A DNA stretch of 64,000 bases from Lactobacillus xylocopicola (GTDB lineage: Bacteria > Bacillota > Bacilli > Lactobacillales > Lactobacillaceae), in NCBI RefSeq assembly GCF_033096005.1, contig NZ_AP026803.1, positions 974,501 to 1,038,500 on the forward strand. The letters run 5' to 3'. The position numbers were made by a program, and so were the translations under genes. Of this stretch, positions 41,528 to 50,694 are shown piece after piece (within the stretch, counting starts at the first letter, position 1; every line of letters starts with the position of its first letter). The notes below the pieces were generated by a model. The model was not told where the DNA came from. It was given only the letters and a program-made list of their open reading frames with translations, and searched no databases.

Positions 41528-41638
41528 TTACTACCCTCCAAAAAATACTTAGACTCGCCAAGTGGGGTGCTTTTTAGTAAAAAGACTTCTTACCCCAAAC
41601 TGTGCGGTTGCAGATGTGGAGGTCTCCACAAATACAAC
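41528..41638 (-). promoter_or_regulatory. Structured 5' leader of rplU-rpmA (L21 leader type)
   Basis: The transcript leader contains a perfect 7-bp hairpin, TGTGGAG/CTCCACA (about 41616-41631). A second stem pairs GGGGT with ACCCC around a 23-nt section. It sits where the L21 ribosomal leader is known in Firmicutes. The match to that RNA family is by position and general structure, not by covariance model. Confidence 0.6.
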
Positions 41639-46116: not shown

Positions 46117-46152
46117 AGTTATTGTTCTAGCGCAGAACATTAAATTACGCCT

Positions 46153-46226
46153 GGTCTGGTAGCTCAGCTGGATAGAGCAACGGTCTTCTAAACCGTAGGT
46201 CGTGGGTTCGAATCTCACCCGGATCA
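46153..46226 (+). tRNA. tRNA-Arg (anticodon UCU)
   Basis: A 74-nt cloverleaf folds fully. The acceptor GGTCTGG pairs with CCGGATC (with G-U pairs). The D arm is GCTC/GAGC. The anticodon stem ACGGT/ACCGT holds the loop CTTCTAA with anticodon TCT, decoding AGA. The T arm is GTGGG/CTCAC with TTCGAAT. CCA is not encoded. It stands alone with its own promoter and a downstream hairpin. Confidence 0.96.
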
Positions 46227-46240
46227 TTCCTAACATCTTT

Positions 46241-46447: not shown

Positions 46448-46476
46448 TTGCATCTTTGCTGCTATTTCTGTATGAT
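46448..46476 (+). promoter_or_regulatory. Promoter of the leader peptide and EIIC-like gene
   Basis: TTGCAT (46448-46453), 17-bp spacer, TATGAT (46471-46476). The predicted RNA start near 46483 leaves about 24 nt before the leader ATG, with AAGGAG in between. Confidence 0.8.
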
Positions 46477-46506
46477 ACTGAATAAATGTTGATAAGGAGT
46501 TACAAA

Positions 46507-46578
46507 ATGACAACTAATAGTAAAAACACTCAAGTAGAAGTTAAATACTATTTTTGGTACTTCAGTATACTGAACTGA
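46507..46578 (+). CDS. Aromatic leader peptide (23 aa)
   Basis: Short reading frame ATG to TGA with AAGGAG 7 nt upstream, too short for usual gene calls. The peptide is MTTNSKNTQVEVK followed by YYFWYF and SILN. Six consecutive aromatic codons (TAC TAT TTT TGG TAC TTC at 46546-46563) are the mark of a leader that measures charged Tyr-, Phe- and Trp-tRNA. The last codons and the stop lie inside an RNA stem that begins the attenuator (see 46556-46693). The peptide itself probably has no other role. This is read directly from the sequence; the regulatory role is inferred from the close fit to classical ribosome-mediated attenuation. Confidence 0.85.
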   Translation: MTTNSKNTQVEVKYYFWYFSILN

Positions 46579-46693
46579 GTGCCTAGTTTGTCGTAGCCCG
46601 AGACACACAGTTCAATCTCTAGCAACTGTGTGTCAAAACCGTATTTTCTTTTCAGGAAGACCCACACAGTTGTTGTCTGTGTGGGTCTTTTTT
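46556..46693 (+). promoter_or_regulatory. Ribosome-mediated attenuator with six mutually pairing RNA segments
   Basis: Segments: P 46556-46565 (in the aromatic codons), Z 46572-46583 (around the leader stop), A 46602-46613, B 46624-46634, C 46657-46671, D 46677-46689. P pairs with Z (9 bp, one bulge), A with B (11 bp perfect), C with D (13 bp, then T tract: terminator). The alternatives are Z with A (9 of 10) and B with C (9 bp). Ground state P:Z, A:B, C:D terminates. A ribosome held at the aromatic codons covers P, freeing Z to take A and B to take C, so the terminator is lost. A ribosome at the stop covers Z and favours termination. Confidence 0.8.
46657..46693 (+). terminator. Attenuator terminator before the EIIC-like gene
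   Basis: Arms AAGACCCACACAG and CTGTGTGGGTCTT, 7-nt loop, then an uninterrupted T tract to 46693. The AGGAGG ribosome site of the next gene starts at 46694, directly after it. Confidence 0.95.
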
Positions 46694-46704
46694 AGGAGGA
46701 AAAA

Positions 46705-47757
46705 ATGGAAGCTACAGAAAAAGTTACTTTGAAAGAAGTCACGTTAAATACATTAAATGGATTATCAACGGGCATTGTCGTTGCCCTAATTCCCGGTGCC
46801 TTAATTAACCAGTTAGTCAAAGCACTAGCACCGCTTTGGCCACAACTCAATTTTATGCTGGTGCTAACTGCCTTTGCAGCAGCCCTGCTACCGGCAATTA
46901 GTGGGGTTTGTGTGGGTATGACGGCCAAGTTGTCACCGATCCAAACATCATCGCTTGCGCTCGCCGCAACTGCCGGGGCCGGTAATATGAGCCTGAAGAA
47001 CGGGCAGATTACCGTGAACGGTAGCGGTGATGTCATTAACATCGCGATTACGATTATGCTTGCCTATGGTTTGATTCTTTTAATGGGTAAGCGGCTCAAG
47101 GCATACACAATTTTGCTAGTACCGCTCCTAGTGCTGCTGATTGCGGGTGGCATTGGTTCGTTAACTCGTATTCCCGTTAGTCAGGTTACACGTTTAATTG
47201 GTCTCGGTGTCGAACATTTGATGAATTTACAGCCAGTATTGATGGGACTAGTAATGGGTGTTGTCTTTGCCCTGCTGATTGTTTCGCCTATTTCTTCAGT
47301 GGGGATTGCAACAGCTATCAGTATCTCTGGGGTCGCAGCTGGTTCTGCCAACCTAGGTATTACTGCCGCTGCCTTTGCCTTAGCCGTTTTTGGTTGGAAA
47401 GCAAACACCGTGGGCACTTCAATTGCTCACTTCCTCGGTTCACCCAAAATGCAGATGGCCAATTTAATGACTAAACCAAAATTGCTTATCCCAATCATGC
47501 TGAATGCTGGTATTTTAGGAGCCTTAGGGGCTATTTTTAAAATTGGCGGTAACCCAATGAGTGCCGGTTTCGGCTTTTCTGGTTTAATTGGACCCATGGC
47601 TGCCCTTGCCGACCGTCCAGCTACTGGCGCAAATATTACTCTGCTAGTAGTGCTTTTCTTTGTTTTACCAATTGGGCTTGCTTTATTGACCAACTATCTC
47701 TTCAATAATAAACTGCATTTCTTCACCAGCAAGGACTTTGAACTTGACTTTAACTAA
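46705..47757 (+). CDS. Orphan PTS EIIC-like membrane protein (PTS_EIIC_2 type)
   Basis: Integral membrane protein of 350 aa, about nine or ten membrane segments, resembling the PTS_EIIC_2 family (GLSTGIVVALIPGALINQL, GNMSLKNGQITVNGSGDVIN, SPISSVGIATAISISG, FGFSGLIGPMAAL). There is no EIIA, EIIB or HPr-like domain in the protein or near it, so phosphotransfer-coupled sugar uptake is doubtful. AGGAGG lies 5 nt before the ATG. Expression is controlled by the aromatic leader/attenuator directly upstream. I infer that it imports an aromatic amino acid or a related compound; the substrate is not known from the sequence. Weaker alternative: a regulator or sugar permease with accidental linkage. Confidence 0.85.
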   Translation: MEATEKVTLKEVTLNTLNGLSTGIVVALIPGALINQLVKALAPLWPQLNFMLVLTAFAAALLPAISGVCVGMTAKLSPIQTSSLALAATAGAGNMSLKNGQITVNGSGDVINIAITIMLAYGLILLMGKRLKAYTILLVPLLVLLIAGGIGSLTRIPVSQVTRLIGLGVEHLMNLQPVLMGLVMGVVFALLIVSPISSVGIATAISISGVAAGSANLGITAAAFALAVFGWKANTVGTSIAHFLGSPKMQMANLMTKPKLLIPIMLNAGILGALGAIFKIGGNPMSAGFGFSGLIGPMAALADRPATGANITLLVVLFFVLPIGLALLTNYLFNNKLHFFTSKDFELDFN

Positions 47758-47842: not shown

Positions 47843-48199
47843 ATGATTAAATTTTATGGTTATAAACGATGCTCAACTTCTAGAAGCGCCCAAAAATGGT
47901 TACAAAGTCACGGGGTTGAACTGGCATTTCAAGACCTAGTTGACCAACCACCTAAGAAGACCGACCTAGTTAAGTGGATGACTGACCACCAAGATCGAGG
48001 TTTGAAATATTTTTTTAATACCAGCGGTCAAGATTATCGCAAGCTGCATTTAAAGGATAAGGTTGCTGACATGACCATTGAGGAAGCCGCCACCTTGATG
48101 GCCCAAAATGGCAAACTAATTAAGCGTCCTTTAGTGGTTGACGGACCCAAGTTGACCTGCGGTTTTAATGAAGCTATTTATCAAACTACCTGGCTATAA
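47843..48199 (+). CDS. ArsC/Spx family thioredoxin-fold protein
   Basis: Protein of 118 aa from the ATG at 47843 (MIKFYGYKRCSTSRSA), with an AGGTAGGA ribosome site; an upstream in-frame ATG would add nine residues. The active-site cysteine is Cys10 in the C-S-T-S motif, and the family segments YFFNTSGQDYRKL and KRPLVVDG are present. ArsC-type proteins reduce arsenate, while Spx-type proteins bind RNA polymerase. The single-Cys CxxS motif is shared by arsenate-reductase-like and some Spx-like members, so I cannot decide. No ars genes are nearby. It has its own promoter and terminator. Confidence 0.88.
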   Translation: MIKFYGYKRCSTSRSAQKWLQSHGVELAFQDLVDQPPKKTDLVKWMTDHQDRGLKYFFNTSGQDYRKLHLKDKVADMTIEEAATLMAQNGKLIKRPLVVDGPKLTCGFNEAIYQTTWL

Positions 48200-48291: not shown

Positions 48292-50694
48292 ATGAGATAT
48301 AATCAATACGCATACGTCGAAACAGATTATGCAACACAGGTCAAAGAACTGTTACAAATTAACTTTTTACCGGTAGATTATCAACAATGCACTTTTGGTG
48401 AATTACTGGCCACAATGGTTGAAAACACCCTAGCTGAAGTTAACCTAACGGACAGTACTACTCGTCAGGCCAAGTTAACTGAGTTTGCCGTTTCTGAAAC
48501 AGAAACACTGGCTAGCTATTTAGCAACCCAGCCGCAAGAAATGAGCCCAGCCCAGTTTTATAACGTAGCCCTGCAACTTTTGGGGTACCACGTCCACTAT
48601 GACTACGAATTGAGTGATCCGCTTAGCTTTATGACCAAAAATGCCTTGCCAGTGGTCGAAAACATTAGTAATTGCACGGATTTGATTACCGCCTTTTACC
48701 GCCTATTGAACACCCGGTCTCAAAACGGCCAGTTGTTAATCGACGTGATGGCTGGTAAAGGCTATTTTGCCGACCGCAGACAGACTCTGCCAGGTAGCCA
48801 ATTTGTCTTGCTAAACGGTAAGAGCCTACCCGTTTTTGACACCAGTAAGGTAATCCGTGAAGTCGTCTATGTCGAGAGTGACCTTGATACTGATGAAGAT
48901 GGCCAATCCGACTTGCTGCAAGTGACAATTTTTCGACCAGTCGAAAGTCAGCAGCTAAAGGTTCCGGCTCTTTATACTGCTAGCCCCTATTTTGGTGGAA
49001 TCATCGACAACGAAAAACGGAACTATTCAGTTGATGCAAATTTAGCGAACGCCTGTGCTTGGACTAATCCTCAATACGAGGCCAGCAACATTATTCCGGC
49101 TGCAAAACCGTCAACAGCTAATCACGAAAATCATCCACCCGTTGAAAAAGCAGTGGGCAAGTCTTCATACGGGCTCAACGAGTACATGTTGGCGCGCGGC
49201 TTTGCCAGTGTCTTTGCGGGCGCCATCGGTACGCGCGGCAGTGACGGCCTACGTATCACTGGTGCACCAGAGGAAACCGAGAGTGCCAAAGAAATTATTG
49301 AGTGGCTGCACGGCGACCGAATTGCCTATACTGACCGCTCACGTCAGCATGAGACCAGGGCCTCCTGGTGCAATGGCAACATCGGCATGACCGGACGGTC
49401 ATACCTGGGAACACTACAGATTGCCATCGCTACGACGGGGGTGGCCGGCCTCAAGACCGTTGTCTCTGAAGCGGCCATCTCGTCCTGGTATGACTACTAC
49501 CGCGAACACGGCCTGGTCATAGCACCCGAAGATTGCCAAGGCGAAGACCTGGACCTCTTAGCCGAAACTTGCCAATCCAACTTATGGGATGCGGGCGACT
49601 ATCTCAAGATTAAGCCTAAATATGATGCAATGCAAAAACAGCTTCAAACTAAGGAAGACCGCCAGACCGGCCAATACTCAGACTTTTGGGAGGCCCGCAA
49701 CTACCGCCACCAGGCGGCTGGCATCAAGTGTTCCTGGATCAGCGTACACGGCCTGAATGACTGGAACGTCAAGCCCAAGAACGTTTATAAGATTTGGCAG
49801 CAGGTCAAGAACTTGCCGATCGAACATCACCTATTCTTGCACCAAGGACCCCACTACAACATGAACAACCTTGTTTCCATTGACTTTACCGATCTTATGA
49901 ACCTCTGGTTTGTCCATGAACTACTCGAAGTCAATAATGGAGCAGAGCAACAGTGGCCAGCGGTAATGGTTCAGGACAACCTGCAAGCCGACAAGTGGCA
50001 CGAGGAAGAAGACTGGAGCGATGAAGTTGGACACTCCACCAGCTATTACCCCACCGATGAGGGAGAACTGCAAAAAGACGGAAACGGTCAGGCCAAAGCA
50101 GCATTCATCGACCAAGGCGGCGTGGAATTTAACAAGGCCCACCTCACTGAAAGCGAATGGCAGTACAAGTTTATTTGCGGTGATGATAAATGGGCCAAGG
50201 CAAGCCTGCGCTTTATTACGGATGAGTTTATCCACCCAGTGACCATTGTGGGTCGGCCTGAAGTCACGGTACGAGTTTCATCCAGCTTGAACAAAGGCCA
50301 ACTATCGGTTGCGCTAGTTGAACTGGGCGACCGCAGACGGCTAACTGCTACACCTAAGTTTTTAATGCGCGGCGGTCAGGAACTGGGCTTCCGCTTTGGC
50401 ACCGATACCCTGCAGGAGTTCATGCCAGACAAGTTGACTCATGCCAAACTGATTACCAAAGGACACATGAACTTACAAAACTATGCCGACATGAAGAAGC
50501 CAGTAGCAATTGAACCGGGGCAGTTTTATGACCTGACCTTCAAGCTGCAGCCAACCTACTACCAACTTCCGGCTGGTAGCAAGTTGTGCCTGATTATCTA
50601 CTCAACTGACCAGGCAATGACGAAACGGCCGCTTGAAGAGACGACCTACACGGTCGACCTGAGCGCTACTGCGATTAAGTTTAAGCAAAAATAA
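48292..50694 (+). CDS. pepX: Xaa-Pro dipeptidyl-peptidase PepX
   Basis: Serine peptidase (S15) that removes Xaa-Pro dipeptides from proline-rich peptides such as casein fragments, typical of lactobacilli. The protein is 800 aa. An N-terminal helical domain (residues 1-150) starts [12 protein letters not shown], as in other Lactobacillus PepX. The alpha/beta hydrolase core has the nucleophile Ser370 in G-R-S-Y-L-G, a WDAGDYL segment and [10 protein letters not shown] with the likely catalytic His, and a C-terminal beta domain follows. AAAGGAG precedes the ATG. It works downstream of Opp peptide uptake. GC content rises sharply inside the gene: two 60-base lines near the start are 35-37% GC, while three lines between 49201 and 50340 are 57-62%. 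Confidence 0.97.

Follow-up and report, generated by a model that had tools for sequence, protein, structure and literature searches.

We analyzed a window of 64,000 nucleotides (nt) from Lactobacillus xylocopicola (NZ_AP026803.1, positions 974,501 to 1,038,500; coordinates below are those of the window), in which a short open reading frame (ORF) rich in aromatic codons precedes the gene for a membrane protein of the PTS_EIIC_2 family (PF13303). Together with its relatives, this leader represents a probable leader-peptide attenuator family that is widespread, undescribed in the literature searched, and combines a mixed aromatic signal with a new set of genes. Judging from the look of the leader and from how widely lactic acid bacteria conserve it, it probably senses shortage of phenylalanine (Phe), tyrosine (Tyr) and tryptophan (Trp) and switches on genes for related aromatic acids. 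The position of the ribosome, either at the aromatic run or at the stop codon, would select the RNA structure, and a limiting aromatic amino acid would increase read-through into the membrane-protein gene or operon. The leader ORF, its run of six aromatic codons and the six RNA segments (P to D) described in the first-pass annotation of this DNA were all recovered, the run being re-read at the position listed in table 1.

For a systematic search, a leader was defined by a fixed rule (ribosome-binding site, 9–45 residues, and at least five F, W or Y in eight residues), and the leader ORF was the only one on either strand of the window to pass it. In the 420 nt upstream of 114 homologues of the membrane protein, a set which takes in close relatives and three loci counted twice, the same rule gave 36 sense and no antisense matches, compared with a mean of 0.5 and a maximum of 2 in 20 shuffles. 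The six-aromatic-codon pattern alone is not rare (one occurrence in the genome vs. 4 and 1 in the backwards control). What is conserved is a short ORF with a ribosome-binding site and an enrichment in aromatic codons, as expected of an attenuator.

Table 1. Leader unit and controlled gene in the window
Feature	Position	Strand	Basis
Promoter-like site, TTGCAT-17 bp-TATGAT	46448..46476	+	direct reading
Ribosome-binding site AAGGAG of the leader ORF	46494..46499	+	direct reading
Leader ORF, 23 codons, MTTNSKNTQVEVKYYFWYFSILN	46507..46578	+	reading, fixed-rule scan, alignment of 14 Lactobacillus leaders
Aromatic run, six adjoining codons Y-Y-F-W-Y-F	46546..46563	+	
Segment P, overlapping the Trp-Tyr-Phe codons	46556..46566	+	
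Segment Z, overlapping the stop codon	46571..46583	+	
Segment A	46602..46614	+	
Segment B	46620..46634	+	
Segment C, terminator 5' arm plus B-pairing extension	46654..46675	+	
Segment D plus T tract, intrinsic terminator 3' arm	46677..46693	+	
Ribosome-binding site AGGAGG of the membrane-protein gene	46694..46699	+	direct reading
Controlled gene, 350-residue membrane protein, PF13303 PTS_EIIC_2, EIIC fold	46705..47757	+	

For comparison, 62 leader units were collected (37 directly before the gene, 14 of them from a scan of named genomes, and 25 before operons), which reduce to 54 different regions with 53 different peptides; 26 operon leaders found later were left out of the pairing tests. An intrinsic terminator lies between leader and gene in 53 of the 54 regions, and a mutually exclusive anti-terminator is kept by compensation, both features of an attenuator. 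Among 14 Lactobacillus sequences, the main C:D helix forms 11 of 11 pairs in every case (C:D of the window copy, L015, reaches -22.1 kcal/mol), and the termination state has 94.7% of its cells paired and 6 double-change pairs (0 of 500 shuffles). The anti-termination state is paired to 94.1%, a level at which 365 of 500 shuffles do as well, and shows 3 double-change pairs (16 of 500 shuffles); its covariation score is attained in 44 of 500 shuffles, and the signal is weak. In 28 representatives, B and C form stronger duplexes with their own partners than with swapped ones (mean -15.6 vs. -8.2 kcal/mol). P:Z pairing in the window involves 46556-61/46578-83 and 46563-66/46574-77, the last pair being broken in 12 of 14 relatives. 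When segments were masked in folding, the structure of the window copy shifted as predicted; among the 28 representatives, the predicted shift was larger than 0.2 in 10, reversed in 1 and smaller in 17. At 152, 172 and 135 nt, the stop-to-terminator spacing of L130, L132 and L064 exceeds that of all other representatives (69–114 nt), perhaps because the chain has an additional hairpin pair.

The distribution of the leader was examined at two levels. Among 80 candidate stretches from a scan of named genomes, 14 are relatives: Lactobacillus melliventris, L. kimbladii, L. kullabergensis, L. helsingborgensis, L. laiwuensis, L. huangpiensis, five unnamed Lactobacillus, Bombilactobacillus mellis, Bombilactobacillus mellifer and a Lentilactobacillus. 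In all 14 an aromatic leader lies immediately 5' of the gene; the window and the named Lactobacillus have the leader in common at a protein identity of 74–78%. At an E-value of 1e-50 or better, the membrane protein was detected in 99 of 301 genomes of the family Lactobacillaceae, at 101 places. The leader is immediately 5' of the gene at 23 places, with only four aromatics in eight residues in L048. At the remaining 78, upstream DNA was read for 3.6 to 7 kilobases (kb), and leaders were sought near the first aminotransferase or dehydrogenase gene or, if both were absent, within the final 520 nt; 51 of these places have a leader ahead of an operon. Aromatic-run leaders therefore occur at 74 of 101 places, in 17 of the 23 genus codes having the protein (hand count). 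The initial interpretation as an aromatic leader-peptide attenuator is supported.

No leader was found at 27 of the family places. One of them, L139 (3587), has a shrunken leader, MANTTRTISSQNGYLFFTHPHA, ahead of a complete operon, possibly a case of sensor decay, and in several g30 genomes the aminotransferase lies, by eye, downstream of ORFs resembling dehydrogenase-complex subunits. Homologues with an in-frame stop were seen in L181 and L147 (G286), G016 and G183; no leader was found in G286, whose upstream aminotransferase-like ORF is split in two pieces. Of 61 homologue places beyond the family, 33 (hand count) were read, for many of them no more than about 1.5 kb of upstream DNA, and leaders with the same segment relay (by eye) were found at two (L184/L198 and L188). 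Five other rule-passing frames (L165, L184, L187, L189 and L192) were rejected because of their position: the frame of L187 is more than 1 kb upstream, and the others are within the gene or behind it.

The operons begin with a class I/II aminotransferase, followed by a D-isomer 2-hydroxyacid dehydrogenase (in 40 of 51) and then the membrane protein. Presence of the leader follows this context: it was found at 40 of 41 places with both enzymes upstream, at 11 of 18 with the aminotransferase only, and at none of 19 where the stretch contains neither. Three aminotransferases tested belong to PF00155, with PRK07309 as the best NCBIfam match just below cut-off; three dehydrogenases match PF00389/PF02826, with a D-lactate dehydrogenase subfamily as the best NCBIfam match, also below cut-off. 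The other copies were assigned by BLAST against those of L116. Among PDB matches of the aminotransferase, an aromatic aminotransferase (1dju) ranks second, and this resemblance, together with the leader, suggests a preference for aromatic substrates. In the window genome, the leader is predicted to control the membrane protein only.

All 53 distinct leader peptides contain F, 51 contain Y and 39 contain W, and the longest aromatic run has six residues in 23, five in 8, seven in 5 and fewer in 17. A motif, [FY]YFx[FY]F, is present in 36 (47 of 63 distinct peptides when the 26 later operon leaders are added and alternative starts merged), with W 24, R 3, K 3, G 3, Y 2 and L 1 at place x. Given the residue counts and this free place, Phe and Tyr are the core of the signal and Trp is dispensable. 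The majority motif may be due to the codons, the peptide or common descent.

The membrane protein scores 301.9 bits against PF13303 (cut-off 28.9) and is thus a member; no other Pfam match, such as an EIIA or EIIB domain, was found within its 350 residues, a search that did not extend to EIIA or EIIB partners elsewhere in the genome. It has the EIIC fold of MalT, PtsG and ChbC but differs from such proteins in having PF13303 as its sole Pfam match and in that its relatives sit among amino-acid and 2-oxoacid genes. Prephenate dehydratase was detected in 30 of the 301 genomes and in 14 of 14 control genomes; the same search did not find it in the window genome, and only 5 of the 74 leader-bearing genomes have it (G020, G057, G082, G109 and G133; hand count). 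Because it is so rare, the operon does not complete an endogenous Phe synthesis in most leader-bearing genomes, and recovery of aromatic skeletons would be useful to the 69 that lack it. We tentatively propose, as an idea that may well prove wrong, an unreported lactic-acid-bacterial regulon which reads the joint charging of Phe and Tyr (and Trp) and controls import and conversion of aromatic 2-hydroxy and 2-oxo acids through an EIIC-fold transporter outside the phosphotransferase system. A serious competitor, whose chances we put somewhat short of even, is that a starvation attenuator merely tunes a system for export or exchange of aromatic acids or for redox balance. The dehydrogenase family is known mainly for reductases (the L124 copy has its best PDB matches in the D-lactate dehydrogenase 4xkj and in 2yq4, with D-hydroxyisocaproate dehydrogenase 1dxy lower), and none of the three aminotransferases and three 2-hydroxyacid dehydrogenases found in the window genome has an aromatic leader, so leader control there does not extend to a full salvage set. 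On the other hand, induction by shortage would be an odd control for export or disposal, and the lack of prephenate dehydratase points the same way. Salvage from aromatic acids is the role that best suits starvation control, with export or redox roles also possible.

It is unlikely that a free aromatic amino acid arrests the nascent chain, as in TnaC, so that excess induces catabolism to phenyllactate- or indolelactate-type acids. The two operon enzymes would suit catabolism, the motif could be a peptide motif, and bee-gut Lactobacillus with an aromatic aminotransferase convert Trp to indole derivatives (PMC9018956). However, 17 of the 53 peptides are off-motif and keep aromatic clusters in other orders (e.g., FYFYFAW, NFWFWFF, VFFWFW and LYLAFIWY), the run lies upstream of the peptide end, and the order P-Z-A-B-C-D is what one would expect of a device that senses whether the ribosome stands on the run or on the stop codon. 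Still harder to sustain is a T-box, TRAP-type or metabolite riboswitch with an incidental ORF. T-boxes commonly control such genes in Firmicutes. Switches from T-box to leader peptide are discussed in PMC2965389; nevertheless, Rfam 15 gave no family at gathering level, T-box included, over the window leader or in 20 operon loci (122,762 bases), and the 15 weak matches over the leader were all under cut-off. Least credible of all is a chance frame before a merely constitutive terminator or read-through site, which the relatives make very unlikely even though six-aromatic patterns do arise by chance in this genome, given the sense-strand excess, the separation of leaders by gene context and the preference of segments for their own partners.

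Starvation-sensing attenuation of this kind has known counterparts. The six-segment logic is that of the enterobacterial his operon attenuator, whose leader peptide has the sensed codon several times in a row and whose segments form three hairpins or two alternative ones, and the aromatic leader is therefore counted among a known kind of attenuator; it differs in its aromatic codons, its aminotransferase, hydroxyacid dehydrogenase and EIIC-type genes, and its occurrence in lactic acid bacteria. Stalling on cognate codons also prevents the terminator in the enterobacterial pheA, pheST, trp and ilvGMEDA attenuators, and several amino acids are sensed together by the ilv leader; these attenuators precede other genes. 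None of them is known to mix Phe, Tyr and Trp. The Lactococcus lactis leu/phe leader (RF01743), a candidate amino-acid leader RNA of a lactic acid bacterium (PMC2864571), scores 16.9 bits here (cut-off 70), only over 46635-46692, and thus does not include the window leader. Computationally identified "regular" His leader peptides, which replace a T-box before hisS paralogues in Bacilli, are similar in kind but have His codons, precede other genes and occur in bacilli (PMC2965389). Likewise, uORFC-13-1 before Acholeplasma aroF is a short Phe-codon frame with a terminator ahead of an aromatic-pathway gene (PMC8632094); it has at least one Phe codon and is known from Acholeplasma and environmental sequences. 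No description of the aromatic leader was found in the open-licence literature, and one may exist in print elsewhere.

Amino-acid leader-peptide attenuators are thought to be rare in Firmicutes, where the aromatic leader is a large family. According to PMC2965389, none had been known outside Proteobacteria and Actinobacteria before the His example of that paper, the atypical ermC leader apart. The leader offers a testable hypothesis on what a branch of the PTS_EIIC_2 proteins does, and a point of control over lactobacillus metabolites of the phenyllactate and indolelactate type. Such metabolites matter in foods. They also matter in hosts such as honey bees (PMC9018956). If the proposed regulon exists, it would set when gut and bee lactobacilli consume or release aromatic lactic acids.

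In other Lactobacillales families, PF13303 homologues have genes of the 2-oxoacid dehydrogenase type (lpd, E1, ptb, buk) as neighbors at L164-L170, L172-L176, L178-L180, L182, L183, L186, L192, L194 and L201-L205. Pfam was used to test L164 and L167, and the remaining loci were judged from the look of their ORFs. This gives a further lead that the protein may transport 2-oxoacids. A PanE-like reductase adjoins the homologue in L171 (the only one Pfam-tested), L177, L185, L243 and L244.

In the window, the promoter-like site matches the sigma-70 consensus at 8 of 12 positions by eye and is under the promoter-scan threshold; similar TTGC.. / TATGAT sites were seen by eye in Lactobacillus relatives. 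A transfer RNA gene, tRNA-Arg (TCT), at 46152-46227 (+) ends 220 nt upstream of it. Directly 3' of the membrane-protein gene is a gene for an Spx/MgsR-type ArsC-family protein (47843-48199, +), followed by the PepX gene (48292-50694), and a ribosomal protein L21 leader (RF00559, 61.5 bits) is located at 41541-41619 (-).
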